From positions 1 through 36,708 of IMG/VR virus record IMGVR_UViG_3300044766_000037: a stretch of DNA of 36,708 nucleotides, one strand, 5' to 3'. Position numbers and translations under genes: made by a program. A model generated the notes under the pieces. That model was not told where the DNA came from, ran no database searches, and worked only from the letters and a program-made list of their open reading frames with translations. The stretch is from a virus. Shown here one piece after another: positions 9,375-23,835 of the stretch; within the stretch, counting starts at the first letter, position 1; every line of letters starts with the position of its first letter.

Positions 9375-10158
9375 AGTACCACCACCTTAATGTCGACGTA
9401 GTTGACGACGTGCGAAGCCGTTCAAGCGCAGTTATTAGGATCGTCGGACTTTGGAAAAATTCAATTGGTGTGTATAGTTGATTATACTTGTATTCACTGC
9501 AGATGCAAGCCTTGGCTTGCTCCCAGTTTTCTTTATATAAATGGCTTGACACCGCCGTCAAATAAAGCAGTCCTGGGTTGTAGTTAGTTTTCCCGCAGTT
9601 GACATAATTCAGCGTTGCGCAAATGTAATGGCTCAACATGCTGAAATTAAACACGTCGTACGGAATGCCGAGCCATACGTCGCTTGAGCGCATAAGAACA
9701 CTGGTATGAAGCACGCCATCACGAATATTGAAGACGAGGCCGATGGTGCATGGTACGTCTTTTGTCTTTGGCGGATTTTCACGCCAGATGGTCATCGCCG
9801 CTTGGCGAGTGTCGCGGTTTTCTAACAGCGTGTTTATAACGTAGTCAAGTTGATCATGGATCCGCGGCCCGTATGCGCCGTAGAACGTTCTGCCGTCATC
9901 ACTAAATTCAGCGATGCGCTTATTAAACGGCGCGATGGTCTCAACGCGATTATCGCCTGAGAGTATCCAATATGCCTCAGCCGCCATGAACTGATAGCTG
10001 AGCTTTCGTTCAGGTATGACCAGCACTGGACGCCTCATATCGACAACGATCGTCTGATGAAGCAGCTCCTTAGTCGTCAGGCCTCGTGGCGTCGTGTTCT
10101 GTCCGTCGCATAAGATGCGGTCTAATAAATGCAACCACTCTTGGTCGAAGTTCTTCAT
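9361..10158 (-). CDS. ThyA-family enzyme, probable dCMP methylase/hydroxymethylase
   Basis: The 265-residue protein has the ThyA core. The nucleophile is Cys137 in DVPCTIG. Exactly 20 residues later, as in E. coli ThyA, comes RSSD (157-160) and then LGIPYDVF. The substrate-base position (E. coli Asn177, eight residues after the RS-D Asp) is Asp168. Asn at this site marks dUMP enzymes, while Asp is found in T4 dCMP hydroxymethylase and in engineered dCMP-methylating ThyA. The His after the catalytic Cys is replaced by Thr138. HLY (206-208) is kept. I therefore favour a dCMP methylase or hydroxymethylase over a plain thymidylate synthase. The start overlaps the kinase stop (ATGA). Confidence 0.8.
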   Translation of the reverse strand: MKNFDQEWLHLLDRILCDGQNTTPRGLTTKELLHQTIVVDMRRPVLVIPERKLSYQFMAAEAYWILSGDNRVETIAPFNKRIAEFSDDGRTFYGAYGPRIHDQLDYVINTLLENRDTRQAAMTIWRENPPKTKDVPCTIGLVFNIRDGVLHTSVLMRSSDVWLGIPYDVFNFSMLSHYICATLNYVNCGKTNYNPGLLYLTAVSSHLYKENWEQAKACICSEYKYNQLYTPIEFFQSPTILITALERLRTSSTTSTLRWWYYETK

Positions 10159-11075
10159 AGAACGCCTTTCAGTTTGAACTGTTGGTATAGTGGAAAATAT
10201 GTGTCAGACTTAAATCGCTTCCAATACTGTGGGTGCTCGATCTTTACTACGGAGTCACACATTGGACGTACTACGTCGTAAGCATTGTCTCCGAAGGCAA
10301 TAATTAGCTTACGCTCGGGCTTGAGAATTTCCTCAAGCGGCTGATCGGCGTTGACCCACGCAATTCGGCTTTCACGAATTTGGAAATTAATTAATTCGTC
10401 AGTCAGCCAACGACTGCAGCCATCGTCGCTGAACGACGCGAACGGCCATTGATAAAATAGATCTTGCTTTTTATGATTGGCGAACTTGTCACCGATCAGC
10501 AGCACCTCGCCCTTCCAATTTCCGGCTGAATTTAAGCTCCATGGATGCCTCAAATATCGGTGCTGGTCGACTGTCTTTAATATTTCGTAGTTCATCTCTG
10601 TGTAGTCATAAGTAATAGACGGCAGGTCGAATTTATCGATGCGGTAAAGATTATGGATTATCTTCATCTGTTTCATCACGTCATAAATAATCCTGCTATG
10701 GCTAGATTTAATGAAGTTTGCCATGACTTCGTCCCAGCCGGGGTCGCAGTAAACTACCACGGCGCCGCATTTCATTGCCAGCCGTTCGAGCATCCGGCAG
10801 TCGGCACGCGTTAAGCGTGAAGTACCTTCACGCAGCACCGCACCATATGGCGCTTCGCTCAACCAACAACGGTCGAATACTACGTCTTGGTATCCCAGGA
10901 GCGCCGGTATCATGGCCTCGGCGTACATCCGTGCCAGGCCTGCACCAACTCGCGGTAGGTCGTTGAAGTGAACCAGTCGTGCATTGGTCTCTTCGGCATA
11001 GCGTATAGCAGCCGTGGTCTTGCCGCTACCATTGCAGCCTTCAAATATTGTCAGCTTTTTGCAGGTGAATAGCAT
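10155..11075 (-). CDS. dNMP kinase fused to a UDG-superfamily-like domain
   Basis: I choose the ATG at 11075 (306 residues), with GGGAG upstream. A longer TTG start at 11180 would overlap the previous gene by 140 bases. Residues ~1-165 are a P-loop nucleoside monophosphate kinase, with Walker A GCNGSGKT (13-20) and the phosphate-binding DRCWLSEAPYG (68-78). Residues ~185-306 resemble a uracil-DNA glycosylase fold: EVLLIGDKFAN, PFASFSDDGCSRWL, IAWVNAD, LIIAFGDNA and HPQYWKRF correspond in order to UDG-superfamily motifs. The kinase would make dNDPs, perhaps of a modified base. The role of the second domain is unknown. Confidence 0.75.
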   Translation of the reverse strand: MLFTCKKLTIFEGCNGSGKTTAAIRYAEETNARLVHFNDLPRVGAGLARMYAEAMIPALLGYQDVVFDRCWLSEAPYGAVLREGTSRLTRADCRMLERLAMKCGAVVVYCDPGWDEVMANFIKSSHSRIIYDVMKQMKIIHNLYRIDKFDLPSITYDYTEMNYEILKTVDQHRYLRHPWSLNSAGNWKGEVLLIGDKFANHKKQDLFYQWPFASFSDDGCSRWLTDELINFQIRESRIAWVNADQPLEEILKPERKLIIAFGDNAYDVVRPMCDSVVKIEHPQYWKRFKSDTYFPLYQQFKLKGVL

Positions 11076-11490
11076 CGTCACGTTGGTTCTCCCTTCTAGC
11101 GGCTTTCGCCCGATAACCATGTTTATGGAGGATCTTCTGAGTCTGAGGACCTTTCCATCCCGGTGGCTTGACGCAATCAACTAGGTGGCCGCGAGGTCCG
11201 ACGCCGCGGACCTTCGTCATATTGGCTCGCTGTACGTCGTCCCAAAGTTCGTCCCACGGAATGCCAAGCATGCATGCCGTGCCCTTGGCGAAGTAGACAA
11301 GATCTATCAGTGCGTCGGCCTGAGCCGCCAGGTCTTGGTTAAACACGGCTTCATTGAACTCTCTAAGTTCTTCATACATGCATTCGAAGCGCTCAACTAG
11401 TTTTCGTTTGGTTAGATGGCCGGGAACGCCGAATTCGAGAATCCCAAATTTTTTGTAGAACGTGCGAACGTCTTCAAGTTCTTTGTCCAT
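11041..11490 (-). CDS. MazG-like nucleotide pyrophosphohydrolase
   Basis: The 149-residue all-alpha NTP pyrophosphatase-like protein has the acidic helix MYEELREFNEA (residues ~39-48) and ADALIDLVYFAKGTA (58-72). WDELWDDVQRANMTKV and a C-terminal KPPGWKGP, usual in phage MazG-like proteins, follow. The family hydrolyses (d)NTPs to monophosphates and pyrophosphate. T4 dCTPase (gp56) belongs to the same all-alpha superfamily. The gene overlaps the methyltransferase stop by one base and the kinase start by 35 bases. In this cassette a dCTP-hydrolysing role is attractive but not proven. Confidence 0.8.
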   Translation of the reverse strand: MDKELEDVRTFYKKFGILEFGVPGHLTKRKLVERFECMYEELREFNEAVFNQDLAAQADALIDLVYFAKGTACMLGIPWDELWDDVQRANMTKVRGVGPRGHLVDCVKPPGWKGPQTQKILHKHGYRAKAARRENQRDDAIHLQKADNI

Positions 11491-12337: not shown

Positions 12338-13015
12338 TTACTTTTTGGCTTCGACGGCGTCTGGCGGGTTCTTTCCGGCTTTCTTGAGGAAATTTCGATA
12401 CCACGCGACGTAGCCGCGCTTTTTCGCGTCAAGACCGTACTTGCCTTGGACCTTGGTGAAAATCTGGTCGTCGGTCAGCTTGCCTTCCATGATCAGATCT
12501 TTGAACAGCTGCGACGCCGATTCGCGTGGCTTGTCGGATTTCTTCGCGGCTGCGGGTTTGGTAGTTTTCGTTGTTTTGGTGGATGACTTGCCTGTTGATT
12601 TGCCGCCTTTTGCCGCCGGCGTCGGGTGAAGCCCTTGGGCTCGCGCCATTCGTTCATTGTCTTTTCTGATTTCGTCTTGGCTCTTCGGCATTTTATACTT
12701 CTCCTTGTTTAAATTTGGAATGATACGCCCGATAAAGTCGAGCGCTTCGTTTGAGATTCTGATGTACTGGCTATATTCGAGAAATGCTTCACAAGCTTTG
12801 CGCGGCGATTGATCTATGAGGAGCTTGTTGTAGTTGTGCTCGAATGGCTCCATCGCGGCGCGTCTCACGACGACGCCGTCTTCAGTTATCGCCAGATATG
12901 TTACAATGCCATCCTTTCGTTCAATTTCAAGGCAGGCATGGCTGTTATGGTCGTGATAAACAAAATAAGAATTTTCAGGTGTCGGTTGTTCGGTGATTTT
13001 GGCTTTTCGCGTCAT
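12338..13015 (-). CDS. Two-part protein with Lys-rich linker and paralogous C-terminal domain
   Basis: The ATG at 13015 has GAGGA eight bases upstream, while the ATG at 13030 has no SD. The ~225-residue product has an N-terminal domain (~1-105; SYFVYHDHNSHACLEIERKDG, IPNLNKEKY) and a Lys/Thr/Ala-rich basic linker (~130-160). Its C-terminal ~55-residue domain (LFKDLIMEGKLTDDQIF ... GYVAWYRNFLKKAGK) also occurs in the gene at 22289-22531. The basic linker and small helical domain suggest nucleic-acid binding, but no family is certain. It is the first gene after a strong promoter at 13060-13088. Confidence 0.65.
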   Translation of the reverse strand: MTRKAKITEQPTPENSYFVYHDHNSHACLEIERKDGIVTYLAITEDGVVVRRAAMEPFEHNYNKLLIDQSPRKACEAFLEYSQYIRISNEALDFIGRIIPNLNKEKYKMPKSQDEIRKDNERMARAQGLHPTPAAKGGKSTGKSSTKTTKTTKPAAAKKSDKPRESASQLFKDLIMEGKLTDDQIFTKVQGKYGLDAKKRGYVAWYRNFLKKAGKNPPDAVEAKK

Positions 13016-13059
13016 TGTCGTAGTCCTCATTAAAATCTCGGCTTTTTATCTTGGACCAT

Positions 13060-13088
13060 ATTCTAATGAATGATTTGATTAATGTAAA
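13060..13088 (-). promoter_or_regulatory. Sigma70-type promoter, TTTACA-17-TAGAAT
   Basis: On the minus strand, -35 TTTACA (13083-13088) and -10 TAGAAT (13060-13065) each match consensus at five of six bases with the optimal 17-base spacer. It is placed to transcribe the gene starting at 13015 and the nucleotide-metabolism cassette below it. The -35 box overlaps a short palindrome, GTAAA-CA-TTTAC (13084-13095), which could be an operator. The same hexamers and spacing occur at 22589-22617. Confidence 0.75.
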
Positions 13089-13099
13089 CATTTACTTTA

Positions 13100-14584
13100 C
13101 TATTTTTTCATCTTTTTTAGGGCGTCGAAAAGCGCGTTCTGGCCGCGTCGCTTAGACTTCAACGCCTCCAAAATCGCCTCGTCGATGGTATCTTCGGCGA
13201 TCAGATGGTATACAAAAACCCGCTTAGCTTTATTGCCCTGTCGGTGGACACGACGGATGAGTTGGTCATATAGCTCATAGTTCCATGTCAACGAATGCCA
13301 GCAGACATGGCACCCCACTTCTTGAAGGTTCAACCCGTGCGCTACCGCTTGCGGGTGACCGAATAACACCGGCAGTTTGCCCCTATTCCAAAGGTTGACG
13401 AGTTCGTTCGACCGCTTAGCCGAGACGCCGCCACCGATATATGGAATATCGCGTCCGAAGCGCTTGCGCAGCCGGTCTAGGTCGTGCTCGAAGTCGTACG
13501 CCACCAACAGCGGGGCTCCTTGAAGCTCGTCAATTAAATCCTCAAGCGCGTCGATTTTTTCGTTATGAAGATTTACCCATTCACGCTGAGGGTTGTGCAT
13601 CCTTAAAAGTTCGCACATTTCTTGGTCGAGGTATACGCCGCCATTGGCGATCTGGCGGCACTTCATGCTAGCAGCCGCGGCGTTTTTGGCGATGACGTGT
13701 CCTTTAGCAATTTGCGCGAAGAGTTCGTGGTGAACTTGATTATAAGTTTCCATTAAACCAGGCTCAAGGGTGACATGAATATTTTGCTCAATCAGCTCTG
13801 GCATCTCCAAATAATCTTCCGCCGCCATGCGTAGTGACAATGGCTTAATGCGCTCATAAATTTCCTGGTCAGCACCTTCTCGCAGCACCCAATTATAACC
13901 GTCATAAGATTCGGTAAAATACTTCATACGAAAATGCGTGATATAAGGCCCTAATGACCGCCCCTGATCAAGCACAAAACACTGGCCGAATAAGTCAAGC
14001 AGACCGTTCGGCGCCGGGCTTCCAGTTAAGCCCCAGCGCCGGCTGAACGTGCCAAGCGTAAGCTTCAACGCCTTAAATCGGATCGTGTTCGTATGCTTGA
14101 ACTTCGACAGCTCATCTACAACCAAAGTGTCGAAGTCAAGCTTTTTCCATCGCTGCATGTCGAAGTTGACCTTGGTCCGACCGAATTGTGATGTGCTTTT
14201 TTCTGCTTGAAGAAGCCACGATAACCCCTCCGGGTTGATGATATAAATGTCAGCGTCGGCTTTGAGCGCTTCATTTTTCTTAGGTCCGTGAAGCAGGCTG
14301 AACTTCAAACCGGTAAAGTCCTCCCATTTTTTGATTTCCGCCGGCCATACGCTGTAGCATACACGCAGGGGCGCAATCAGCAGAACCTTACTCAGGAGCT
14401 TCCGCTGTTTGAGAAACTTAATCGCAGCCAGCGCAATTGATGTTTTGCCAAGTCCCGGATCGAGGAAAAGCGCCGCGGCGGCATGCTCTAAAAGGAACTT
14501 GAGCGACTTCTTCTGGTACTTATGAGGAGCCCAGGGAATGGCCTCTAGAATGACATCAGACGCAGGAATCAATGATTTATGCAT
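13100..14584 (-). CDS. SNF2-family (SF2) helicase/translocase
   Basis: The 494-residue protein shows SF2 motifs in order: Walker A DPGLGKT (42-48), motif Ia LLIAPLRV (68-75), DELS in place of DEAD/H (157-160), LTGSPAPNG (186-194), and a C-terminal lobe with GHPQAVAHGLNLQ and QLIRRVHRQGN (motif VI). It is an ATP-driven DNA translocase, probably supporting replication or recombination. Such helicases commonly accompany VRR-NUC nucleases and family A polymerases in phage replication modules, as here. Its spacing from the VRR-NUC gene is 39 bases. Confidence 0.85.
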   Translation of the reverse strand: MHKSLIPASDVILEAIPWAPHKYQKKSLKFLLEHAAAALFLDPGLGKTSIALAAIKFLKQRKLLSKVLLIAPLRVCYSVWPAEIKKWEDFTGLKFSLLHGPKKNEALKADADIYIINPEGLSWLLQAEKSTSQFGRTKVNFDMQRWKKLDFDTLVVDELSKFKHTNTIRFKALKLTLGTFSRRWGLTGSPAPNGLLDLFGQCFVLDQGRSLGPYITHFRMKYFTESYDGYNWVLREGADQEIYERIKPLSLRMAAEDYLEMPELIEQNIHVTLEPGLMETYNQVHHELFAQIAKGHVIAKNAAAASMKCRQIANGGVYLDQEMCELLRMHNPQREWVNLHNEKIDALEDLIDELQGAPLLVAYDFEHDLDRLRKRFGRDIPYIGGGVSAKRSNELVNLWNRGKLPVLFGHPQAVAHGLNLQEVGCHVCWHSLTWNYELYDQLIRRVHRQGNKAKRVFVYHLIAEDTIDEAILEALKSKRRGQNALFDALKKMKK

Positions 14585-14623
14585 AATCTATAAAACCTCG
14601 TTTGAAAATAGGCCTACCTAGCC

Positions 14624-14935
14624 TCAGATGAGCCATTTTAGCGCCAGAAGTTCCACCTCTACCGTATCTACGGCTTGTTTCGGTGAAACGCAGATCTTAA
14701 CATCATAACCAAGAGTCCGAAGTTGACCAATGACGTGTTCCTGTTTAGCCCGAAGCTTCTCACCTGGGCGCTTAAACTCGATCATCAACGGCTTGCCGCC
14801 AGGGAGCCAAAAAATTCGATCGGGATAGCCGGTCGACTGAGTCGGTGTCAGCTTGACGCTAGTGATGCCGAATTTATTAAGGATTCGGCTGCATGCAATC
14901 TGCTCGATTTGAGCTTCATTTCTCAGTATCGGCAC
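14624..14935 (-). CDS. VRR-NUC domain nuclease
   Basis: The 103-residue protein has the PD-(D/E)xK-type VRR-NUC core. GYPDRIFW (residues 36-43) supplies the Asp, MIEFKRPG (51-58) supplies the Glu53-x-Lys55, and a downstream Gln65 lies in AKQ. VRR-NUC proteins cut branched or flap DNA structures. The start is a GTG with GGAGG seven bases upstream, inside the 3' end of the Cas4-like nuclease gene (13-base overlap). This indicates coupled translation. Association with SNF2 helicase and PolA is a recurring phage theme. Confidence 0.85.
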   Translation of the reverse strand: MPILRNEAQIEQIACSRILNKFGITSVKLTPTQSTGYPDRIFWLPGGKPLMIEFKRPGEKLRAKQEHVIGQLRTLGYDVKICVSPKQAVDTVEVELLALKWLI

Positions 14936-15630
14936 TGGCCGCCTCCAGCTGCCTTGTTAGAATGACGGTAAAAGCACCAGATGCATTTGTTGTTCGGCCG
15001 TGGCGCGAAGCGCTTGTCGTTGAGCATCGCGCGAGTACGCTTCAACCACGTCTGTTGGAGCGCCGGAAGCTGGTCACGGTAAAACGTCATCGGGTATTCA
15101 GCCTTGGCGTCAAGATAGAGCAGCGTGGCATTTATTCGTTTGACTTCCGGGTACAACAGAAAGCCGGCTAGCGCATAGAGCTCGAGTTGTTCAGTATACA
15201 TGGTCGCGGCTTCCTCGACCCTGAACTTCCCGGTTTTCCAATCGTAAATGTCCATTACACCTTTTGTGATCTCAGCGCAATCGACTTTGACCCGCAGCCA
15301 ACACTCGGCCCAATCATTCCATACCGTCCGGCTCCAATCTTTTCTGAAAGCCCATGATTCCTCGATGATCAGCGCTTTGCCGGCTTTGACCCTATTTCGT
15401 AAAACCACGAACAGGATTTTGTATTTCACCAGCTCTGGCGGCAGCTTAACAATGACTCCCCTGAGATAGTCGCGGGCCAGGTCGTGGATCCCGGCTCCAC
15501 GGGCCATGGCCTCATTAGGCGGCTCTGCGATCTTGTCTAAATGTTTAAGTTTTGCCTTAAGCGGGCAAAGAATATAGTCAGAATAACGACTGAATGACCA
15601 TGCGAAAATCATTTTCAATTTTTTGAACAT
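14923..15630 (-). CDS. Cas4/RecB-like PD-(D/E)xK exonuclease with Fe-S type cysteines
   Basis: The 235-residue protein has Cys22 near the N-terminus and three C-terminal cysteines (216, 219, 233), the arrangement that binds a 4Fe-4S cluster in Cas4 and AddB nucleases. Catalytic-core candidates are GIHD (His49), KVD (Asp117), DWKTGK (Asp130, Lys132) and the QLELY motif (148-152). It is probably a replication/recombination exonuclease. There is no CRISPR array nearby, so a CRISPR role is not indicated. AAGGAGAACT precedes the ATG, and the gene overlaps the DNA polymerase end by 16 bases. Confidence 0.8.
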   Translation of the reverse strand: MFKKLKMIFAWSFSRYSDYILCPLKAKLKHLDKIAEPPNEAMARGAGIHDLARDYLRGVIVKLPPELVKYKILFVVLRNRVKAGKALIIEESWAFRKDWSRTVWNDWAECWLRVKVDCAEITKGVMDIYDWKTGKFRVEEAATMYTEQLELYALAGFLLYPEVKRINATLLYLDAKAEYPMTFYRDQLPALQQTWLKRTRAMLNDKRFAPRPNNKCIWCFYRHSNKAAGGGQCRY

Positions 15631-17534
15631 AGTTCTCCTTTTTTGTCATAATCTTTTAGCTCATTCCAGTTTGTGCTAGAAATTGAACCCTCAGACAGCA
15701 TCGGCAAATCAAATTCTACAGACTCCATAGTAGAGCGCAGCATCTCCATTACAGGTTTCAACTGACGTTTCGGTGCCGACACCATTTCTTCATCATGCAC
15801 GCTGAGGATCATCTTCCAAGACGAATCACGAACGTCGTTGAACCGGATAATAGCTTCTTTGGTGCAGTCGGCCGCGGAGCCTTGAATAAGTACATTAACC
15901 AATTTGTAGTCATATTTCTGAATGCGACCGTTCTTCACCTGAGGCTCTTCGCAATAATATTCTCTTCCGCCCCAGGTGCGAATCGGCTCATGGGCCTCAG
16001 CCCGACGCCTCATTTCTTGATACATCGCCTTCAGACCAGGGTACAACGACAACACAGCTTTTTTCAGCATTGCCGCTTCATCAACCGCCATGTTGTTCTT
16101 CATAGCTAACTTGCCAACGCCCATCCCATATAAAAGCCCGAAGTTGGTATTTTTTACCGGCTTGCGATCGTAACGAAGCCCCATCTTTGCCAATTCTTTT
16201 TGGGCGTATTCATGCACATCCATCCAATTGTCTTCTTGGTAGCGCCTGAGCAATGCGCCGCCATCGAAGTGAGCTAAGATTCGCAGTTCTTGCTGAGAGT
16301 AGTCACGATCGACTAATACCTCGCCTTTAAATGGAGTAATATAACTACGTATCATCGGAAGTGGTAGAAGTCCGCTGATTGGACATTTCGGCAGCTTTAA
16401 CTTCGGCGCCTCATGATAAAAGATCGGCGCAAACTCCTTAGGGATATTTTGAAAATTCGGCGTAGATGACAACCGTCCTGTACGAGTACCTACGTTAGAA
16501 TCGCCTTGTGGCGTCTTAACCTGATTCCACGTAGTATAAATGAGGCCATTTGAGGCCTCAGCCGTTTCAAGCCATGGCAACATAAACGTGCTCATGCACG
16601 TCTTCAACTGCGCCCGATATTTCAGCACCGCCAGTAGGTACTTGTCGGTAATTCCCAGAATGAGCGCTTCCTTATTGGTTTGATACTTGCCGGTAGGGGT
16701 GCGAGGCAGCAGCTCTGGCTCTACTTTTCCGGCTTTGATCATCGCCTCTACTAACTGAGGCCCGGAGTCTAAGTTGGCCCTTGTGTTTCGCAACTGGCTT
16801 CGAATCCAACGGTCAATCTTGAGTTGAATGCCGCCGTACATCATCACGTCATTATGAAGCCGCTTCAGATCGACAGATACGCCGCGACGCTCCATGTCGA
16901 GCAGGATCGGCATTAATCGGCGCTCACGATCGTAAGCTTCGAGCATGCCGCGCTTACCGTTCGACTTATGAAGCTTCTCGAACAGCTTCTCAGTCCGAAT
17001 CACGTCGCCGTTGGCATATTCAGCCACTAAGCTCCCTGGGGCGTATCGGATATACTTCATAAAATAATGATCAGATTCAGGAGAACGACTGATCTTAACA
17101 CCGCGAACAGGTTGCTTCTCGATCAGCCAGTCAGCTACGGCGTCGCGCTCCGCGGGTTTCATGCCGAGGATTCGCTCAGCCGAGGGCTTCAATGACAAGC
17201 TGGTCTGATGCGGGTCGTCAAGAAATAAATGAAACATTGTATCATGATATGACGCCCAATGAAGACGCGGCATTTTGAAGAACGTCTCAGCCACGTCAAC
17301 GTCAAATTTCCCATTTTGAAAAAGCAAGCCGTCATAATCGTCTTTCCAAATCCTAAAGAGCTCTCGCCGCGCGTCTTCTTTAGTGCAGTTGTTTTCAGAC
17401 TCATGTCCAAAGGCAAAATAACGGGCATTGCTTCCTGGCAACTTAATGCTGACACCTACCGGCCGCGGCGGATAACTCGGCCGCGGCTCGATGGCGTCAG
17501 TTTCGAAGTCCACTACGATCGGTTCTGGTTTCAT
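15615..17534 (-). CDS. Family A DNA polymerase with 3'-5' exonuclease domain
   Basis: The 639-residue protein has a proofreading domain (Exo I VDFETD with Asp9/Glu11; Exo II NGKFD, Asp78; Exo III YANGD, Asp177). The polymerase domain follows: TRTGRLSSTPNFQNIP (~351-365), motif A DRDYSQQELR (Asp411), motif B RKPVKNTNFGLLYG (Arg457, Lys461, Phe465), and motif C VHDEE (579-583). It lacks a 5'-3' exonuclease domain, as usual in phages. Phe465 corresponds to Phe762 of E. coli Pol I. It is the replicative polymerase. GAGGA lies upstream of the ATG. Confidence 0.95.
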   Translation of the reverse strand: MKPEPIVVDFETDAIEPRPSYPPRPVGVSIKLPGSNARYFAFGHESENNCTKEDARRELFRIWKDDYDGLLFQNGKFDVDVAETFFKMPRLHWASYHDTMFHLFLDDPHQTSLSLKPSAERILGMKPAERDAVADWLIEKQPVRGVKISRSPESDHYFMKYIRYAPGSLVAEYANGDVIRTEKLFEKLHKSNGKRGMLEAYDRERRLMPILLDMERRGVSVDLKRLHNDVMMYGGIQLKIDRWIRSQLRNTRANLDSGPQLVEAMIKAGKVEPELLPRTPTGKYQTNKEALILGITDKYLLAVLKYRAQLKTCMSTFMLPWLETAEASNGLIYTTWNQVKTPQGDSNVGTRTGRLSSTPNFQNIPKEFAPIFYHEAPKLKLPKCPISGLLPLPMIRSYITPFKGEVLVDRDYSQQELRILAHFDGGALLRRYQEDNWMDVHEYAQKELAKMGLRYDRKPVKNTNFGLLYGMGVGKLAMKNNMAVDEAAMLKKAVLSLYPGLKAMYQEMRRRAEAHEPIRTWGGREYYCEEPQVKNGRIQKYDYKLVNVLIQGSAADCTKEAIIRFNDVRDSSWKMILSVHDEEMVSAPKRQLKPVMEMLRSTMESVEFDLPMLSEGSISSTNWNELKDYDKKGELCSKN

Positions 17535-17739
17535 GGCATTTAGTCCTCAGCTCTTCTCGTTCTCGGTTTGCGCGTACACGTTTTAGTCTGCTGTGAATTC
17601 TCAGCACGAACAGCTGACGCCGCCGACCGAAAAGCTCAGCTGCCAGCAGCTCTTTGCACTGCTTTTCGTCGGCCTTTGCGATGACTGCGTTGAGCGTCAG
17701 CCAAGTCCGAAGAATTTTTTTATTCTCTAAGTGAGACAT
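17497..17739 (-). CDS. Small basic protein upstream of DNA polymerase (80 aa)
   Basis: GGAGG lies five bases before the ATG, and the 3' end overlaps the polymerase start by 38 bases, so translation is likely coupled. The product is helical and strongly basic in its second half (FGRRRQLFVLRIHSRLKRVRANRE). I recall similar short proteins next to replication genes in other phages but no known function. A nucleic-acid- or polymerase-associated role is inference. Confidence 0.6.
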   Translation of the reverse strand: MSHLENKKILRTWLTLNAVIAKADEKQCKELLAAELFGRRRQLFVLRIHSRLKRVRANREREELRTKCHETRTDRSGLRN

Positions 17740-17748
17740 AAGACCTCC

Positions 17749-17775
17749 AGCCCGGCGGTCGCTAATCGCCAGGCT
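17749..17775 (-). repeat. Hairpin abutting the ribosome binding site of the polymerase-upstream gene
   Basis: On the minus strand AGCCTGGCG / CGCCGGGCT form nine pairs (one G-U) around a nine-base loop. The stem ends directly against GGAGG, the SD of the gene starting at 17739. This is the same hairpin-then-SD arrangement as at 12297-12323. It lies in the 48-base gap after the SSB-like gene. Confidence 0.6.
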
Positions 17776-17787
17776 ATTAAATGAAAA

Positions 17788-18588
17788 TTAATACCGGCCG
17801 CGCTTTACTTTGTTCTGCGGCGCTCGTTGCTGTTTGGAAGCCGAAGGAGGCAATTCCTCGATTGGCGTGTATGGAAACGCGATCAAAGATTGGGCTTCTT
17901 GATGGCGTTTTTTCATAATGCCGAGCATCTCATTTGGAAGGGTGATGAGCGGCTCGAATACGACTTTGAACTGAGTTTTCGCGTCTGCCACAACGCGGAT
18001 CTTGGTAGCGACATAATGAGGCGGCCGATGAAGCCCGCCAGCCAGGTTCTTCACATAACCGGCATAGCCCTTAACGCTGGTCACAGGGAGCTTCATGAAG
18101 CCGAGCGCGGTGTTCTCATAATCTTCTACGTCGAAGAAAACGAGCTTGCCTTGATGGTCGAAGTTCCCAGCGGCGATCATTGCCAACCGTCTCGTATTGC
18201 GGCACGCCTTCCCGCGACCTGTGTCGGCCGAAGCCCACTCATTCCAACGACAGTTCTTGCAGAGGTCGCATTGCGCAGTGCCAGCGTCGACCACAACTTT
18301 ATGTGGCGTCATAGTCTGCTCGTCGCGGCCGAACGCAAAGCATGTCGGCGACTGAGGAGAATCCGGTTCGAACTTTCCGGCATAGTACACGTTCTCCATA
18401 ATCGCGTCTAAAATGATCACAGCCATCATGTTGTTCGGCAGCGGCGCGTCGTTCCACGTCAACTGTCCGTTACGCAGGCTGAAGAACTGCCCAGTTACTA
18501 CGCTGTTTTCCATCGCAGCTGCGAGCTCAGCTTCTCGCGCCATTTCCTCGTCCCACTTGACTGGGAGGTTTCTCTTTTCAGATTTCAT
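17788..18588 (-). CDS. Putative single-stranded DNA-binding protein with zinc-finger-like cysteines
   Basis: The 266-residue protein has a Cys cluster, C107-x2-C110-x2-C113-x15-C129, inside a stretch reading CRWNEWASADTGRGKAC. A beta-rich region (LVFFDVEDYENTALGFMKLP, then YVATKIRV and FKVVFEPL) and a polar basic C-terminus follow. Such proteins occur between primase-helicase and DNA polymerase genes in phage replication modules and are plausible ssDNA-binding proteins. The fold is not certain from sequence alone. AAGGA lies ten bases before the start. It follows the gene at 18605, its probable partner, by 16 bases. Confidence 0.55.
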   Translation of the reverse strand: MKSEKRNLPVKWDEEMAREAELAAAMENSVVTGQFFSLRNGQLTWNDAPLPNNMMAVIILDAIMENVYYAGKFEPDSPQSPTCFAFGRDEQTMTPHKVVVDAGTAQCDLCKNCRWNEWASADTGRGKACRNTRRLAMIAAGNFDHQGKLVFFDVEDYENTALGFMKLPVTSVKGYAGYVKNLAGGLHRPPHYVATKIRVVADAKTQFKVVFEPLITLPNEMLGIMKKRHQEAQSLIAFPYTPIEELPPSASKQQRAPQNKVKRGRY

Positions 18589-18604
18589 TTTTAAGTTGTC
18601 CTTT

Positions 18605-18994
18605 CTAGAGTTTGTTCATCGAAATAGTTGCATATTTGAAGCTGTCAACTCCTGGGATCTTTTTACCGGCTTCCCAGATTTCCGTGATAGCGGCGTCGCT
18701 CAATCGGCGCTGCATCAGGTCAAACCGCCCCGTCTTCTTCACGAATCCGTAGAACTTGTCCCAATTATCCACGCGAGGCACGGTCTTAGTCACGACCGTG
18801 ACGCGCACGAACTTTCCGGCTACGCCCGACGCCTTCGATTTCGGCAGCGTACTTATAAGATGTTCCTTCATCGCCTTTTCCTCGGCGTCGATCTCATCCG
18901 TCAGCTTCTGAGCGGCCAACCGCTTTTCACGAAGCTCATAGAGCCGATCGGCGCACGCTCCCAAGGCTTTAGGGAACTTATAAATTTTCGGCAT
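18605..18994 (-). CDS. Replication-module protein of unknown function (129 aa)
   Basis: The protein has an N-terminal coiled coil (CADRLYELREKRLAAQKLTD, ~14-33, continuing to ~47). A compact domain follows, with KASGVAGKFVRVTVV (~53-67), VDNWDKFYGFVKKTGRFDLMQRR (~75-97) and KIPGVDSF near the end. AGGAGG lies upstream of the ATG. Its position beside the SSB-like gene and its coiled coil resemble phage Gp157-like or SSB-accessory proteins. I cannot name the family with certainty. Confidence 0.6.
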   Translation of the reverse strand: MPKIYKFPKALGACADRLYELREKRLAAQKLTDEIDAEEKAMKEHLISTLPKSKASGVAGKFVRVTVVTKTVPRVDNWDKFYGFVKKTGRFDLMQRRLSDAAITEIWEAGKKIPGVDSFKYATISMNKL

Positions 18995-19025
18995 AATGCT
19001 TCCTCCTTTGTAATATGAAGCCAGA

Positions 19026-21095
19026 CTAATATTTTACCTTCACCACGCCTTGACACAAATTCCATGCGTTTAAATGTCCGCAGATTTCTTTGTGCGAGCT
19101 CTCCACCCACTTTTTAATATTTCGCACCACGTAATATCTTGATTGGCTTCCATCAGCCAGCTTGACCGGCTGCCCTTCTAGCACTTGGCGAATTCCTGCC
19201 CGCGCCAACTCGCGCCCAAGCCCGTTAGCCGTGGTGCCGGTGTGGTTGGTCGGATCGTACAGCTGCAGCAGCTCCTTAGACGTGAACAGGTCTTTCATGA
19301 TCTGAATTTCGCCGACTCTCAACACCACGTCAGGCGTGAGTTGAAGTTGTCGAACCCATCCTGCTAAATCAGACTGCATGTTTGTAATCATGCGGTCTCG
19401 GGCCTTGGTTTTATACGCCGGCGCCGCCGGATTGAAATCGCCTAGGTCGATCTTCAGAAGATAATCGAACACCGCAGCCGCGCCTCCTGAGTCGAGCCAT
19501 AAATCGTATTGGACGTAGAACTCCTCGTCAAGCGGCTCGATCGTCACTTCATGGATGAAAAATCGACGGTCGTCGTCTTCTAAAAAGAAGCTGTCTGGGT
19601 GGTTCGCCGTAAAAAAATAGTTGATGCAGTCGTCGATCACGTATGACGGCACGTATTTTGTATTGACCCGCATCTCCTTCTGCGTGATCAGCTTTTTCAA
19701 AAAGTCAGCGTCGGTCCGCTTGTTGCTGCCCGTGACGTCATCTCCCATCACGAACTGTTTAGCCTCCGCCCATTCGTTGAAGTGGTTGTGTAAGTCTACC
19801 TGGCTGATCTCGGTGAAGTTCTTTCCGTAGATCCGGCCGAGCGTATAACCGACAAGCGATTTGCCGGTGCCGTGCTTAATGCCGTGAAGTACGACTGATG
19901 TAAACAGCTTGACGCCTGGATATTTCAACGGGTATGCACACCAGCGGAGAAACCACTTCTTAGCGTAAGGCTCTGAACCCGTAAATAAGTGGTCGACAAG
20001 CTGCGTGAACAGCTCTACGTCGCCCGACTTGGCCTCAAGCCCCCATCCAGGCCAGACGTTGAACCTTTGAGGCTCGCCGGTAAATTTCTCAGCACCCGGC
20101 TCATAGCTGATTCGAGCAGCTTCGTTTCTTAGCGGCCACTTGATCCATGAGCTAGCCCCAGACACTGGCTTGTATGACGGATTATTATTTATATCAGGCT
20201 GCCGCTCTTGGTACACCTCCGTGGCTTCTAGGTGATTCACGAATGCTCCTGGGTCGATTTTAGCATGGGTTTGCTGGTTAATGATCAAACCAGGGTTCGC
20301 AATATAGGCATAGTCGTCGTTGAACTTCCACAATACGCGCGAAAGCCCGATAGGCTCAGCCATATGCATGATGTTGTTAAAATTATCTCGACCTGGCTGG
20401 CCTTTATAATAGACGAAAAAGTCGTCAACCCCCACTTTTCCCTCGATTTCAGGAATGTCCGGCAAGCTCGCCATGAAGACGTAAGCCCCGTGCTGCTCCA
20501 CAGCTTCCGCTAAATCCCGCAAAGCCAAGCATACCTGCGGGTTCGTGCGAAAGTCGCTGTCAAAGCAGATATATACCGGGCGGCGCGGCCACTTGATAAG
20601 GTCTAAACTTGGGAGCCATGTAATCCCTCTTTTTATCGCCTTCCAATTAGAGACACCGCCGAGGCCGATGGCAGCAAAGCCTTCCTTGCACGCTTTCGCC
20701 GATTTCAACTCGCCTTCGGTGATGATAATCCTGGCGCTTGGGTCCATGGCGATCGCCTTCCAATTTGCGTTGGCTGGGTAATACGCCACAGGCGCCGTGT
20801 CTGGCTCTTGGATGTATCTAAGCTCCTTTTTTTCTTCCATGAACGACCTCGGCTGTTCAAGATAGCGAAGACGATAAAACCCTTTGGCCTTAGGCCAATC
20901 AGGCAGCGGCTTTCCCGCAAAGTCGAGGTAGTTTATCTTAAGCGCGCATGCCGGCTTGTAAATGCGGTGAAGCTTAGATACCTCAATGACGTCTAAGCAT
21001 TCGATGCCTAGAATTTTTGCGTCGTCTAACGTCAAGCCGGATTTTTCTAATTTCTTCTTTCCTAGATCTACTGCGTGAGATAACCGCTTCATCAT
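19026..21095 (-). CDS. Primase-helicase (TOPRIM-like N-terminus, SF3 helicase C-terminus)
   Basis: The 689-residue protein has a TOPRIM-like domain (IIITEGELKSAKAC, 123-136; VYICFDSD, 174-181), as in DUF3854-type phage primases. An SF3/D5-like helicase follows, with Walker A GIKHGTGKS (405-413), Walker B KQFVMGDDV (446-454) and a downstream NYFFTANHPDSFFLEDDDRR sensor segment. It would unwind the fork and probably prime synthesis. The initial ATG-ATG has only a weak SD, AAGGTTGG. It is the largest early gene and follows a small membrane-protein gene by ten bases. Confidence 0.85.
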   Translation of the reverse strand: MMKRLSHAVDLGKKKLEKSGLTLDDAKILGIECLDVIEVSKLHRIYKPACALKINYLDFAGKPLPDWPKAKGFYRLRYLEQPRSFMEEKKELRYIQEPDTAPVAYYPANANWKAIAMDPSARIIITEGELKSAKACKEGFAAIGLGGVSNWKAIKRGITWLPSLDLIKWPRRPVYICFDSDFRTNPQVCLALRDLAEAVEQHGAYVFMASLPDIPEIEGKVGVDDFFVYYKGQPGRDNFNNIMHMAEPIGLSRVLWKFNDDYAYIANPGLIINQQTHAKIDPGAFVNHLEATEVYQERQPDINNNPSYKPVSGASSWIKWPLRNEAARISYEPGAEKFTGEPQRFNVWPGWGLEAKSGDVELFTQLVDHLFTGSEPYAKKWFLRWCAYPLKYPGVKLFTSVVLHGIKHGTGKSLVGYTLGRIYGKNFTEISQVDLHNHFNEWAEAKQFVMGDDVTGSNKRTDADFLKKLITQKEMRVNTKYVPSYVIDDCINYFFTANHPDSFFLEDDDRRFFIHEVTIEPLDEEFYVQYDLWLDSGGAAAVFDYLLKIDLGDFNPAAPAYKTKARDRMITNMQSDLAGWVRQLQLTPDVVLRVGEIQIMKDLFTSKELLQLYDPTNHTGTTANGLGRELARAGIRQVLEGQPVKLADGSQSRYYVVRNIKKWVESSHKEICGHLNAWNLCQGVVKVKY

Positions 21096-21105
21096 AATAC
21101 CAACC

Positions 21106-21303
21106 TTACCAGAGACGTGGGTGGAGTTGATCAGAGATGTGCCTGTACTTGTTAAGCTGCTTTTTTTCCAAGCGCTTCAGCAAACATGCTGTGACACACG
21201 CAAGCAGCACAAAAATCATTACCACCCAGGTATACCCTTTACTGGTGTACACGCCGGATAAAAGCAGAAACGTGACTAAAAGACTACTAAGAAAACTCCA
21301 CAT
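21106..21303 (-). CDS. Small two-helix membrane protein (65 aa)
   Basis: AAGGAGG precedes the ATG, a very strong SD. Residues ~3-18 and ~24-43 are hydrophobic, and a basic cytoplasmic-type tail (KRLEKKQLNKYRH) follows. The gene is in the early operon, away from the lysis cassette, so a holin role is unlikely. Early phage membrane proteins often block superinfection or alter host physiology. A ~110-base structured spacer lies just upstream. Confidence 0.55.
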   Translation of the reverse strand: MWSFLSSLLVTFLLLSGVYTSKGYTWVVMIFVLLACVTACLLKRLEKKQLNKYRHISDQLHPRLW

Positions 21304-21325
21304 AGAAACCTCCTTAAGTTAAAAT

Positions 21326-21436
21326 AGAGGGCGGCGGGACGCCTGCTGCTTTGGAACGAACGCACAGGGTTAAATGTTTAGTGGAGCATCTACTCCTGTT
21401 GATATAAAGATCTGAGCCCCGCTCGCCGCGCCCTCT
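21326..21436 (-). ncRNA. Candidate structured RNA element in the early operon
   Basis: The ends pair perfectly (AGAGGGCG / CGCCCTCT; 21326-21333 with 21429-21436). A second helix, GCGGG/CCCGC, stacks inside (21334-21338 with 21418-21422, one side bulged), and ACAGG/CCTGT pairs further in (21364-21368 with 21395-21399). GGAG/CTCC is an alternative inner hairpin. The stretch carries no convincing gene and fills the 137-base gap before the strong SD of the 65-aa membrane protein. It is a leader or intercistronic structure by inspection only. No known riboswitch or tRNA pattern fits. Confidence 0.35.
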
Positions 21437-21440
21437 GAAG

Positions 21441-21779
21441 TTATTGCTTTGTTTTTTCTGCCAACACCCGGACCATGAGCTGGTATGCGCTTTGCACCGG
21501 CAAATCAAGAAAATTATCTTTAATAAGGTCACGATTTTCTTGAAAATTTGCTGCGCGAACAACTAATTCACACTGAAACGGACAACCGCCGCCTTTCGCC
21601 CATTTAAGAAACTTTTTCGGGCTCGGGTGATTTGAGGCGTCATAACGCATTAAATCAAGAGTCAACGAATCTGAACATCTACCCCATGCCGCTGTTAAAA
21701 CAACAGCGGGGTTAAGGCCTTTCGCGCCATGCAGGTCCGCATAAGGTTTGACGTTTAATTCTCTACCGTTGATTAACAT
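21441..21779 (-). CDS. Unknown early protein (112 aa)
   Basis: AAGGAGATACC precedes the ATG. The 112-residue protein is mixed alpha/beta. It begins LINGRELNVKPYADLHGA and includes WGRCSDSLTLDLMRYD and a Cys-containing loop, GGGCPFQCELVV (~64-75). There is no signal or membrane segment. The start overlaps the end of the preceding gene (21773) by seven bases. I do not recognise the family. The position suggests an early accessory function. Confidence 0.55.
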   Translation of the reverse strand: MLINGRELNVKPYADLHGAKGLNPAVVLTAAWGRCSDSLTLDLMRYDASNHPSPKKFLKWAKGGGCPFQCELVVRAANFQENRDLIKDNFLDLPVQSAYQLMVRVLAEKTKQ

Positions 21780-22117
21780 GGTATCTCCTTTTCTTCCGGC
21801 AGGCCGGCAGACCGCATAGCAGCGCGAATCTCAGCGATCGACCGGTGCGGAAAGTGGTTCATAAGAAGATCGAGCACGCAGCCGTCGACCGCCGACAATT
21901 CCTGGGTATCAGCGTGTCGGTAGACATCAGAGATAAGAAGCACCAAGTCGTCGGGGTTGATAAGGTCTCGCGGCTCTGACGCCTCAAGCAGATGCGAGTT
22001 CAAATCAGTGGCGACGGCGTCGGCATCTGATTTACGAGGAATCGTGCTGACGACGACGCGGCCGTTATACATAACAGCGTATCCAGTTTCGTAAGTGACT
22101 ACAGAGTATTTTTTCAT
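21773..22117 (-). CDS. Unknown early protein (114 aa)
   Basis: GGGGGGAG lies ten bases upstream of the ATG. The N-terminal ~45 residues (YSVVTYETGYAVMYNGRVVV, then RKSDADAVATDLN) look like a small beta-hairpin plus helix module of a kind common in phage accessory proteins. The C-terminal half is helical and acidic. The start overlaps the stop of the 22114 gene (ATGA). No function is assigned. Confidence 0.55.
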   Translation of the reverse strand: MKKYSVVTYETGYAVMYNGRVVVSTIPRKSDADAVATDLNSHLLEASEPRDLINPDDLVLLISDVYRHADTQELSAVDGCVLDLLMNHFPHRSIAEIRAAMRSAGLPEEKEIPC

Positions 22118-22287
22118 CGGTAAAACTCCCCCCTTCTAAGAAGTTCGTCAGTGACGGCGTTGGCGTAAGCTTTCACGCAAGCCAGGATATACCACACGAT
22201 CAGGAAAAAAATCGCCGGGAGCCAAGCGCCTGAGCAGGCGCAACCGATAGTCGCGAAAAGAGAAACGACACACATAAAAGATAACAT
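22114..22287 (-). CDS. Small membrane protein (57 aa)
   Basis: I choose the ATG at 22287, seven bases after AGGCGG, rather than the in-frame ATG at 22305, which lies inside the previous gene. The product has two hydrophobic stretches (~2-17, MCVVSLFATIGCACSG region; ~20-36, WLPAIFFLIVWYILACV) and a charged tail (VTDELLRRGEFYR). It is a second small membrane protein in the early operon and may modify the envelope or exclude other phages. The family is unknown. Confidence 0.5.
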   Translation of the reverse strand: MLSFMCVVSLFATIGCACSGAWLPAIFFLIVWYILACVKAYANAVTDELLRRGEFYR

Positions 22288-22288
22288 A

Positions 22289-22531
22289 TTATGCCGCCTT
22301 TCCATTGCGGATCATCTCAGCGCGGTACCAACCAGGATAAGATTTTTTAGAATCGGGGAGGTTGAATTTGATCTTTGCGACTTCGAAGATTTGCTCGTTC
22401 GTGCGGCCCTCGCGTATCAGCTGGCGCATAAATGAAGAGACGGAGACTTTTTTCGGGGCAGCAGCTCTAAACGCGACCGCAACTTTTTTTATTGATTTTT
22501 TAACAGCGGACTTCTTCGTTGACTTTTTCAT
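22289..22531 (-). CDS. Lys-rich small protein with paralogous domain (80 aa)
   Basis: AAGGAGAATCAA precedes the ATG at 22531, so the in-frame upstream ATG at 22582 is less likely. Residues 1-30 are extremely Lys/Ser/Ala-rich (MKKSTKKSAVKKSIKKV). Residues ~30-78 (SFMRQLIREGRTNEQIF ... SYPGWYRAEMIRNGK) match the C-terminal domain of the 12338-13015 protein at about 18-20 of 50 positions. A basic tail plus a small helical domain suggests DNA or RNA binding. It is the first gene after the promoter at 22589-22617. Confidence 0.65.
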   Translation of the reverse strand: MKKSTKKSAVKKSIKKVAVAFRAAAPKKVSVSSFMRQLIREGRTNEQIFEVAKIKFNLPDSKKSYPGWYRAEMIRNGKAA

Positions 22532-22588
22532 TTGATTCTCCTTTTTAGTTTCAAGTTTTTCGTTGCTAGTGTTTTTGTTCATAAGAAG

Positions 22589-22617
22589 ATTCTACCTCAG
22601 CTTAAAGTGGATGTAAA
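22589..22617 (-). promoter_or_regulatory. Sigma70-type promoter, TTTACA-17-TAGAAT (second copy)
   Basis: On the minus strand -35 TTTACA (22612-22617) and -10 TAGAAT (22589-22594) are separated by 17 bases, exactly as at 13060-13088. The two also share TG directly before the -35 box. It lies in the 64-base gap before the next gene start region and would transcribe the early operon from the Lys-rich gene at 22531 onward. Confidence 0.75.
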
Positions 22618-22646
22618 CAATTATTTATGTGAAAACGCATTATTTT

Positions 22647-23213
22647 TTAAGTGCCCTTAAGCTCTTTCTTTTCAAGCTCTTTGAGCCGTTTATATAAAAG
22701 ATGTGTCCCAAATATATCAAGTAAGTGATCAAGTGGTGGCGTCCCTTGCTCAGAATCCCAAGTAGATTCATTAACGTACAACATCTCGCCGTTGCGTGTA
22801 TAAATTTGAAAACTGCCGTCGGAGCTGGTCATTTTTTTCTTAAGCGCTTGCGGCGACTTCATGCCGGCTATGACTACCGCTTCTAATAATGAATAGTAAC
22901 CGTCTAAGTTTTCAGGCGGCTCGTGATACACGTGGTAATATGTTTCCGGCTTAGCGGGTTTTTCTAAGACTTCTTTTGTGAGAATGATAAATTTGGTGGG
23001 GTTCTTAGGATTTTTAAATTTCGTAATGCCGTTATCACGAATCAGGTAAGACATCACCGTGTTTACGCTTTTACCGACCGACTCAGCGGCGGCTTTATAG
23101 TCATTAACGATTAATTCACGCCCGTTGTCCCAGGTAAGCCGTAGTTGAACGAGCTTTTTCTTCCAACTGCCTTTCTGGTGTGTTATTGGATTTTGCTTTA
23201 ATAATTTTGACAT
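22647..23213 (-). CDS. Putative early DNA-binding protein (188 aa), paralogue of neighbour
   Basis: Residues ~15-80 (QLRLTWDNGRELIVNDY, then AAESVGKSVNTVMSYLIRD and KFKNP) match the neighbouring gene at 23222-23566 over about 64 residues. The segment around AAESVGKSVNTVMSYL has the look of a helix-turn-helix. The C-terminal half is different and contains YYSLLEAVVIAGMKSPQALKKK, another possible HTH, and a polar tail. GAGGA lies before the ATG. It is the second gene of the early operon, which suits a regulator, but the DNA-binding role is inference. Confidence 0.55.
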   Translation of the reverse strand: MSKLLKQNPITHQKGSWKKKLVQLRLTWDNGRELIVNDYKAAAESVGKSVNTVMSYLIRDNGITKFKNPKNPTKFIILTKEVLEKPAKPETYYHVYHEPPENLDGYYSLLEAVVIAGMKSPQALKKKMTSSDGSFQIYTRNGEMLYVNESTWDSEQGTPPLDHLLDIFGTHLLYKRLKELEKKELKGT

Positions 23214-23221
23214 ATGGTCCT

Positions 23222-23566
23222 CTATGACGGTATCAATTTAAAAGAATCAGAAATTTTTGTGATAGTAATAATTTCTGATCCATTTGGATTTTGAAATTTT
23301 ACTGACCCGCCTTGTCGATAAATATATAATGCTAAAGTCTTAGCTTTTTTACCGACATATTTTGCGGCGACTTCATAGTCATCAGTAGTTATTTCACGCC
23401 CGTCGTCCCAAGCTACTTTAAGGTGTGACCGTTTAATTTTCCAACTATCTTCAGATTCTGCTAAAGGTGCCGTTGGTTGGTTTAATGCGCTAATTTTTTC
23501 AATAGCTTGTTGGCGTTGTTTTTTTGGTAAAGCTTTTAAAATTTGACTTAATGCTAAGTTGTCCAT
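23222..23566 (-). CDS. Putative early DNA-binding protein (114 aa), first early gene
   Basis: AAAAGGAGATAAT precedes the ATG. After a helical N-terminus (LSQILKALPKKQRQQAIEKI) the last ~70 residues (HLKVAWDDGREITTDDY, AAKYVGKKAKTLALYIYR, VKFQNP) are paralogous to the next gene. The pair probably arose by tandem duplication. As the first gene transcribed leftward from the divergent control region, it is a candidate early regulator or nucleic-acid-binding protein. No named family is recognised. Confidence 0.55.
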   Translation of the reverse strand: MDNLALSQILKALPKKQRQQAIEKISALNQPTAPLAESEDSWKIKRSHLKVAWDDGREITTDDYEVAAKYVGKKAKTLALYIYRQGGSVKFQNPNGSEIITITKISDSFKLIPS

Positions 23567-23665: not shown

Positions 23666-23835
23666 AAAAATACAGATACAGAAAAAAGGACCAAGGTTCT
23701 CTAGATATACCTGCTTATTGAAATAAATAATAATAATATTGTTCCTTAGTATCCTATCTATATATTATTATTTATTTTGATAAGCAAAAGCAGCCAGCTA
23801 ATATAGACGGCCCTTTTACTGTACTCTGTATTTTT
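23666..23835. repeat. Nested long inverted repeats in the divergent region
   Basis: The outer arms AAAAATACAGATACAG (23666-23681) and CTGTACTCTGTATTTTT (23819-23835) are complementary apart from one inserted base. The inner arms 23713-23735 and 23763-23785 pair at 21 of 23 positions around a 27-base AT-rich loop. The stretch between the arms is only partly complementary. Such structure fits an origin, a regulatory RNA or a terminator between divergent promoters. No iteron array is visible. Confidence 0.7.

Follow-up and report, generated by a model that had tools for sequence, protein, structure and literature searches.

A phage-specific domain in two promoter-linked genes of an uncultivated virus, one with a predicted nested product

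Results

Two leftward genes share a phage domain

The virus record IMGVR_UViG_3300044766_000037 (IMG/VR), a 36.7 kb stretch from an uncultivated virus that was analyzed whole and is referred to here as the window, carries two genes, A and B, whose products have in common a domain of about 55 residues (Table 1). A first-pass annotation, made from the nucleotides alone, had the coordinates of both open reading frames right (12338-13015 and 22289-22531); both lie on the minus strand, and the plus strand across them is full of stops. The likely start of gene A is the ATG at 13015, with another in-frame ATG at 13030. For gene B, an upstream in-frame ATG at 22582 sits close to where transcription is expected to begin, and the ATG at 22531 is preceded at 6 nt by AAGGAG, making the latter the likelier start.

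The first-pass annotation had claimed that the two products contain a common domain, each copy next to a Lys/Ala-rich basic segment, and both observations hold. The proteins align by BLASTP with 29 of 78 residues identical (E=3e-10), part of the basic segment included, and the segments are a tail with 36% Lys and a net charge of +11 in gene B and a linker with 20% Lys and a net charge of +10 in gene A. A profile built from 13 copies, both window copies among them, finds exactly two copies in the window. The profile of PHROG 17205, built without the window copies, also matches both over the 55-residue domain (E=9e-4 and 3e-5), placing them in a PHROG 17205-like family.

That the domain would recur as a family when sought by profile across phages was likewise borne out. 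Searching with gene B by tblastn returned 44 phage records, and searching with a Bradleyvirinae copy returned 69 phage records with 244 places in all; the domain is therefore multi-copy per genome. Viral contigs added 32 further loci when scanned with an alignment and two more with gene A; gene B as a single-protein query returned no matches there, so that an alignment was needed. In total, about 70 phage records and another 34 viral contigs contain the domain. A genome can have as many as six copies: by one profile applied to 37 records, the nearest relatives of the window mostly have two, and Bradleyvirinae four to six. One viral contig (L028:1894-4341 and G014:C1:6397-6552) has three domain genes in tandem, with a further copy close by in an open frame of 481 residues. 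There is no model for the domain in Pfam or NCBIfam, and no copies were found in the plasmids scanned. A genome scan with one of the alignments (A5) gave two loci only, both with phage gene order around gene A, and found no chromosomal version.

In a tree of the domain, all gene B copies, including that of the window, fall in one clade (support 100/95), indicating that genes A and B are old paralogs within a phage-specific family. The same tree rejects a recent duplication of the two window copies. Gene B of the window lacks an additional N-terminal module (RDSATSALRKLG..ARDYN) that its counterparts in relatives have.

A probable, conserved translation start inside gene A

The 21-row alignment of gene A contains only one invariant Met, in EI.MATxKK at the boundary between the N-terminal domain and the linker. 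The window DNA at this point reads AACAAGGAGAAGTATAAAATG, with the ATG at 12691, and in the AlphaFold model of gene A a low-confidence helix continues past this Met to about residue 126. The Met is present in 26 of 27 orthologs, and in each of these 26 the duplex energy with the 16S tail is -4 or lower (mean -7.77). When nine gene families (gene A and eight neighbors) were compared, only true gene starts scored alike elsewhere (methyltransferase start 0.95, dCMP deaminase start 1.0), the best other internal Met columns reaching 0.64-0.67; gene A thus has a conserved in-frame start codon with a Shine-Dalgarno sequence comparable to those of true starts. Synonymous reshuffling gave an observed mean of -7.67 against a null mean of -6.06, lower than 400 of 400 reshuffles, a comparison among related rows that is not an independent P value. 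The Shine-Dalgarno sequence is encoded by varying residues and in varying frames (QGE, QED, QKD, KEV, QEA). These patterns strongly suggest that gene A also yields a short product, which is predicted to resemble the gene B protein (117 and 80 amino acids; isoelectric point, pI, 10.1 and 10.8).

Could this start be an accident, in which K/Q-E-x-x-M is retained for protein reasons, happens to spell a Shine-Dalgarno sequence, and only full-length A is made? The residues themselves do favor a Shine-Dalgarno sequence, as the null mean shows, and one ortholog (L091) does without the internal start. However, the Shine-Dalgarno sequence is retained through the differing residues and frames, the Met borders a disordered linker, and the nine families contain no further conserved internal Met that scores alike; we consider an accidental start unlikely.

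The internal start has a counterpart in a cultured phage. AXL3_32 of Stenotrophomonas phage AXL3 (Axeltriavirus) is a full-length gene A ortholog (36% over 89%) with the internal start (MATKKK), and AXL3_34 is the counterpart of gene B. Both are annotated as hypothetical. Unlike in the window, A is without its own promoter and lies two genes away from B.

A clade-wide promoter class linked to domain genes

Genes A and B had been described as the first genes downstream of matched strong promoters, and this was confirmed: TTTACA-17-TAGAAT (GTTTACA-N17-TAGAAT) has only two exact copies in the window, at 13088-13060 and 22617-22589, with the qualification that two further leftward open reading frames (23222-23566 and 22647-23213) lie upstream of promoter B. 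Between 8500 and 24600, where 34 sigma70-like sites were counted against 18.5+/-4.3 expected, promoters A and B tied with four other sites for the best score.

Across 21 related records, GTTTACA-N16-18-TAnnAT gave 58 sites, present in 20 of the records, and the reversed pattern gave 0. The sites have in common an A-rich extension, AAnTAnnT, and the extended 15-mer alone gave 33 against 1; this extension may be an UP element rather than an operator. The class, AAnTAnnTGTTTACA-N17-TAnnAT, is found clade-wide in the 21 related records, with up to six sites per genome, and its sites could serve to map transcription units. It stands directly before gene B in six relatives, with variants in two more, and a like promoter precedes gene A in the window and two relatives, with a weaker one in a third; most relatives with gene B just upstream of gene A have no visible promoter before gene A. 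From these placements, a domain gene in first position after a strong promoter is a conserved arrangement, and at the level of sequence both the promoter class and its linkage to domain genes are clear.

The two open reading frames upstream of promoter B, both on the minus strand, are themselves paralogs (42% over 72 amino acids, E=5e-19) that carry WD.GRE...DY..AA..VGK...T...Y..R and matched no Pfam family. Further upstream, the A+T-rich gap that separates the leftward from the rightward gene block contains an inverted repeat at 23712-23786 (24 nt, 92%, 27-nt loop; TGCTTATTGAAATAAATAATAATA), possibly an origin or a regulatory hairpin.

Gene A keeps its slot in the replication block

Head and tail genes occupy the plus strand of the window, and a replication block runs leftward: primase/VapE-like helicase, polymerase A, RecB-type exonuclease, VRR-NUC, SNF2 helicase, and gene A, followed by methyltransferase, MazG, kinase-like, thymidylate synthase-like, and dCMP deaminase genes. 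In the relatives examined, gene A either follows the SNF2 helicase immediately or is separated from it by a few genes, and it precedes genes of the methyltransferase, MazG, and thyA types; the window copy occupies this conserved slot of the PHROG 17205-like family. Bradleyvirinae, Pamexvirus, and Xiamenvirus have a domain gene in the slot without the gene A N-terminal domain. Judged by these alignments and gene orders, family and synteny are well established.

Members of PHROG 17205, 38698, and 34102 (function unknown; "TolA protein" in some records) have the same domain as the window genes and hold the same slot after the helicase in these three groups. Matches of the window copies to these families are weak (E 1e-3 to 3e-5). 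Gene A differs from them in its extra N-terminal domain and nested start. The "TolA" label probably reflects the K/A-rich tails only.

The preserved position directly after polymerase and helicase genes in many phages, together with Lys/Ala-rich basic tails and a pI of about 10, would also fit a replication or nucleoid accessory, in which module and tails coat or bend phage DNA (or single-stranded DNA) without sequence preference, working with the adjoining SNF2 helicase and DNA polymerase, and the promoter merely gives high expression. We regard this as possible but doubtful: Bradleyvirinae tails are mixed K/A/E rather than purely basic, and the old, conserved split between A and B and the nested isoform suggest more than bulk coating.

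Elsewhere in the leftward block, the minus-strand gene at 10155-11180, which adjoins thyA and a methyltransferase gene and also occurs in L090 and L091, encodes a protein whose N-terminal part is thymidylate-kinase-like (phrog_761) and whose C-terminal part (LLIGDKFA..PFASFSDDGCSRWLTDEL) is of unknown kind; this protein could be a member of a base-modification pathway.

Fold and fusions of the domain

For both proteins, AlphaFold predicts with confidence that the C-terminal domain has three helices (predicted local distance difference test, pLDDT, ~90). In gene A it predicts, again with confidence, an N-terminal domain of beta barrel plus helices, joined to the C-terminal domain by a disordered linker. 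The solved structures nearest to the shared domain are mostly helix-turn-helix (HTH) domains: LuxR/NarL/GerE, DeoR, linker histone H1.0, and Lrp-type (Z <= 4.9 by VIA). AlphaFold had been suggested as a check for an HTH fold; the models show three helices in both proteins, and their weak best matches are mostly HTH domains. The N-terminal domain of gene A shows weak likeness to small beta barrels of the Sm, SH3, and Tudor kind by Foldseek and VIA, and Foldseek with the full gene A model gave no match at E <= 0.001. Sequence searches of the PDB yielded no credible relative; the top matches (CAP REPEAT, designed proteins) were rejected because they cover short, low-information stretches.

Helix 3 of the domain is basic, with invariant W and R and a near-invariant Y (WYR..L). 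From the predicted three-helix fold and its mostly HTH neighbors, we infer that the module may bind DNA through helix 3, with the basic tails adding affinity. The nucleic-acid-binding regulator proposed in the first-pass annotation remains plausible on indirect grounds: this fold, the basic tails, a fusion to a methyltransferase, and a weak resemblance to Mrr_N.

The fusions show that the domain is promiscuous. A third copy in one relative (L041:6413-7768) is the C-terminal part of a C5-cytosine DNA methyltransferase (PF00145, E=2e-13), and in Bradleyvirinae a head protein of ~1198 residues, encoded beside the portal gene, has two copies between MuF (PF04233) and ADP-ribosyltransferase (PF01129) domains (for example L048:2923-6516, ON331942.1 22922-26515). 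The methyltransferase fusion favors DNA as the ligand, and the head protein fits either DNA or protein. Neither the fusions nor the internal translation start had figured in the first-pass annotation.

Such varied company, with the domain in N-terminal, C-terminal, or internal position and in one to six copies per genome, would suit a protein-binding module whose helices dock on a common partner (host RNA polymerase, helicase, portal, or capsid) and bring differing cargoes to it, be it a basic tail, a methyltransferase, or an ADP-ribosyltransferase head protein, and its place inside the MuF-ADP-ribosyltransferase protein agrees with this. Against protein docking, the fold neighbors are mostly DNA-binding HTH domains, helix 3 is basic and conserved, and one fusion partner is a DNA methyltransferase; we judge it improbable. 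If the module instead reads DNA, it might, as a phage-only device, direct regulators, methyltransferase, and head protein to phage DNA or to the AAnTAnnTGTTTACA promoter class. This broader proposal is decidedly improbable; if true, one common targeting code would serve phage regulation, modification, and head-protein functions at up to six places per genome.

The pattern of the domain is also similar to that of Mrr_N (PF14338), the N-terminal domain of the Mrr restriction enzyme (...G...eI...v...f.L...r...vgWar..LkkaGL), although the match is partial and the domain has neither the insertion between helices 2 and 3 nor a nuclease. Weak Mrr_N matches were obtained for 13 of 44 domain copies (best E=0.0049) and for none of the window copies. 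Membership was rejected, since scores fall below the curated 29.5-bit cut-off (12.6 bits for the one member with scores listed) and the hhalign probability is 24%. This resemblance, the position of gene A beside thymidylate-synthase-like, kinase, and methyltransferase genes, and the restriction resistance of AXL3 DNA reported by the authors who described the phage (PMC7504290) would fit a module that, in the way of the winged helices found in type IV restriction enzymes, recognizes modified phage bases and tethers fused enzymes to the DNA of the phage instead of that of the host. We hold that to be very improbable: the Mrr_N match is partial and below cut-off, and the families that the window enzymes match are those of ordinary thymidylate synthases and kinases.

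Table 1. Positions of genes A and B and associated features in the window
Feature	Position	Strand	Remarks
Gene A, full-length product, 225 amino acids, pI 9.6: N-terminal domain, disordered Lys-rich linker, C-terminal three-helix domain	12338..13015	-	orthologs in same place after SNF2 helicase
Predicted nested short product, 117 amino acids, pI 10.1: linker and domain	12338..12691	-	internal ATG 12691; Met kept in 26/27 orthologs
Shared domain, copy A	12350..12532	-	profile E=3.9e-30; helices at residues 167-177, 182-193, 202-212
Gene A N-terminal conserved domain, ~108 amino acids: small beta barrel and helices	12692..13015	-	AlphaFold pLDDT ~94 over core; weak SH3/Sm/Tudor-like matches
Internal Shine-Dalgarno sequence AAGGAG, 9 nt before internal ATG	12701..12706	-	
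Promoter A: AAGTAAATGTTTACA ... N17 ... TAGAAT	13060..13097	-	-35 at 13088-13083, -10 at 13065-13060
Gene B, 80 amino acids, pI 10.8: Lys/Ala-rich N-terminal tail and domain	22289..22531	-	
Shared domain, copy B	22295..22459	-	profile E=2.4e-26; helices at residues 31-40, 45-56, 65-75
Promoter B: AAATAATTGTTTACA ... N17 ... TAGAAT	22589..22626	-	-35 at 22617-22612, -10 at 22594-22589; same promoter before gene B in relatives

Discussion

The explanation that we favor overall, and to which we give an even chance of being right, is that genes A and B encode paralogous, HTH-like basic modules, that gene A has two products, and that DNA binding by the module tunes the phage's own operons. Both genes stand first behind the clade-typical promoter AAnTAnnTGTTTACA-N17-TAnnAT, presumably read by host sigma70 polymerase. 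Gene A would give two proteins from a single frame: the full-length form, in which a flexible Lys-rich linker joins the beta-barrel domain to the HTH-like module, and a short form of linker and module. The module would bind DNA through its third helix (WYR..L), the basic tail assisting, and, much as T7 Gp5.7 does, tune transcription of the phage's own operons, early ones or those for replication. Competition with the full-length form, or control of its dose, could be the role of the short form; autoregulation and competition between the forms are speculative.

The closest functional analogue is T7 Gp5.7, a 7 kDa winged-HTH-like protein that represses initiation by host RNA polymerase at T7 promoters and whose binding to DNA and to the polymerase is experimentally established (PMC5569994). 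Like it, the proteins described here are small, have a fold predicted to be HTH-like, and possibly act at the phage's own host-type promoters. Gp5.7 was not among the PDB matches listed, by sequence or by structure, an absence that is no proof. The promoter linkage, together with this precedent, makes action at the phage's own promoters the likeliest use of the module. We know of no nested isoform of Gp5.7. The earlier suggestion of early regulators that act on their own promoters is compatible with the conserved linkage between promoter and gene B, and nothing was found in favor of the accompanying suggestion that they act on host chromatin.

Several observations weigh against our favored explanation. 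L091 (4599-5177), a divergent gene A ortholog, has Leu for the internal Met and has lost the Shine-Dalgarno sequence, and synonymous constraint at the internal start could not be shown with only 3 informative codons. The promoter class also precedes other genes, and the promoter scan of relatives did not find it at Bradleyvirinae promoters. Searches for structural relatives of the domain gave no convincing match (Foldseek E > 2 for B, VIA Z <= 4.9), leaving HTH as a resemblance only, and the copies within the MuF-ADP-ribosyltransferase head protein fit protein binding equally well.

The family is already known in the form of unnamed PHROGs and of hypothetical or "TolA" annotations. Our literature search found nothing on this protein or domain, and the family is undescribed in the portions available to us of papers on AXL3 (PMC7504290), PW916 (PMC9414467), and Mesyanzhinovviridae (PMC11946847). 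Nor did that search turn up any description of the nested start, the A/B paralogy, the fusions, or the promoter class.

The domain recurs in dozens of phages, among them cultured ones that infect Pseudomonas, Xanthomonas, Stenotrophomonas, Achromobacter, and Roseobacter, where it has been left hypothetical or labelled TolA, with no Pfam or NCBIfam model to name it. The nested start predicts a second product that is absent from the gene tables of these phages that we examined, and the common promoter class provides a first handle on early transcription in the group. Together, these genes constitute a new family of probable viral regulators that is open to testing in a cultured phage such as AXL3.

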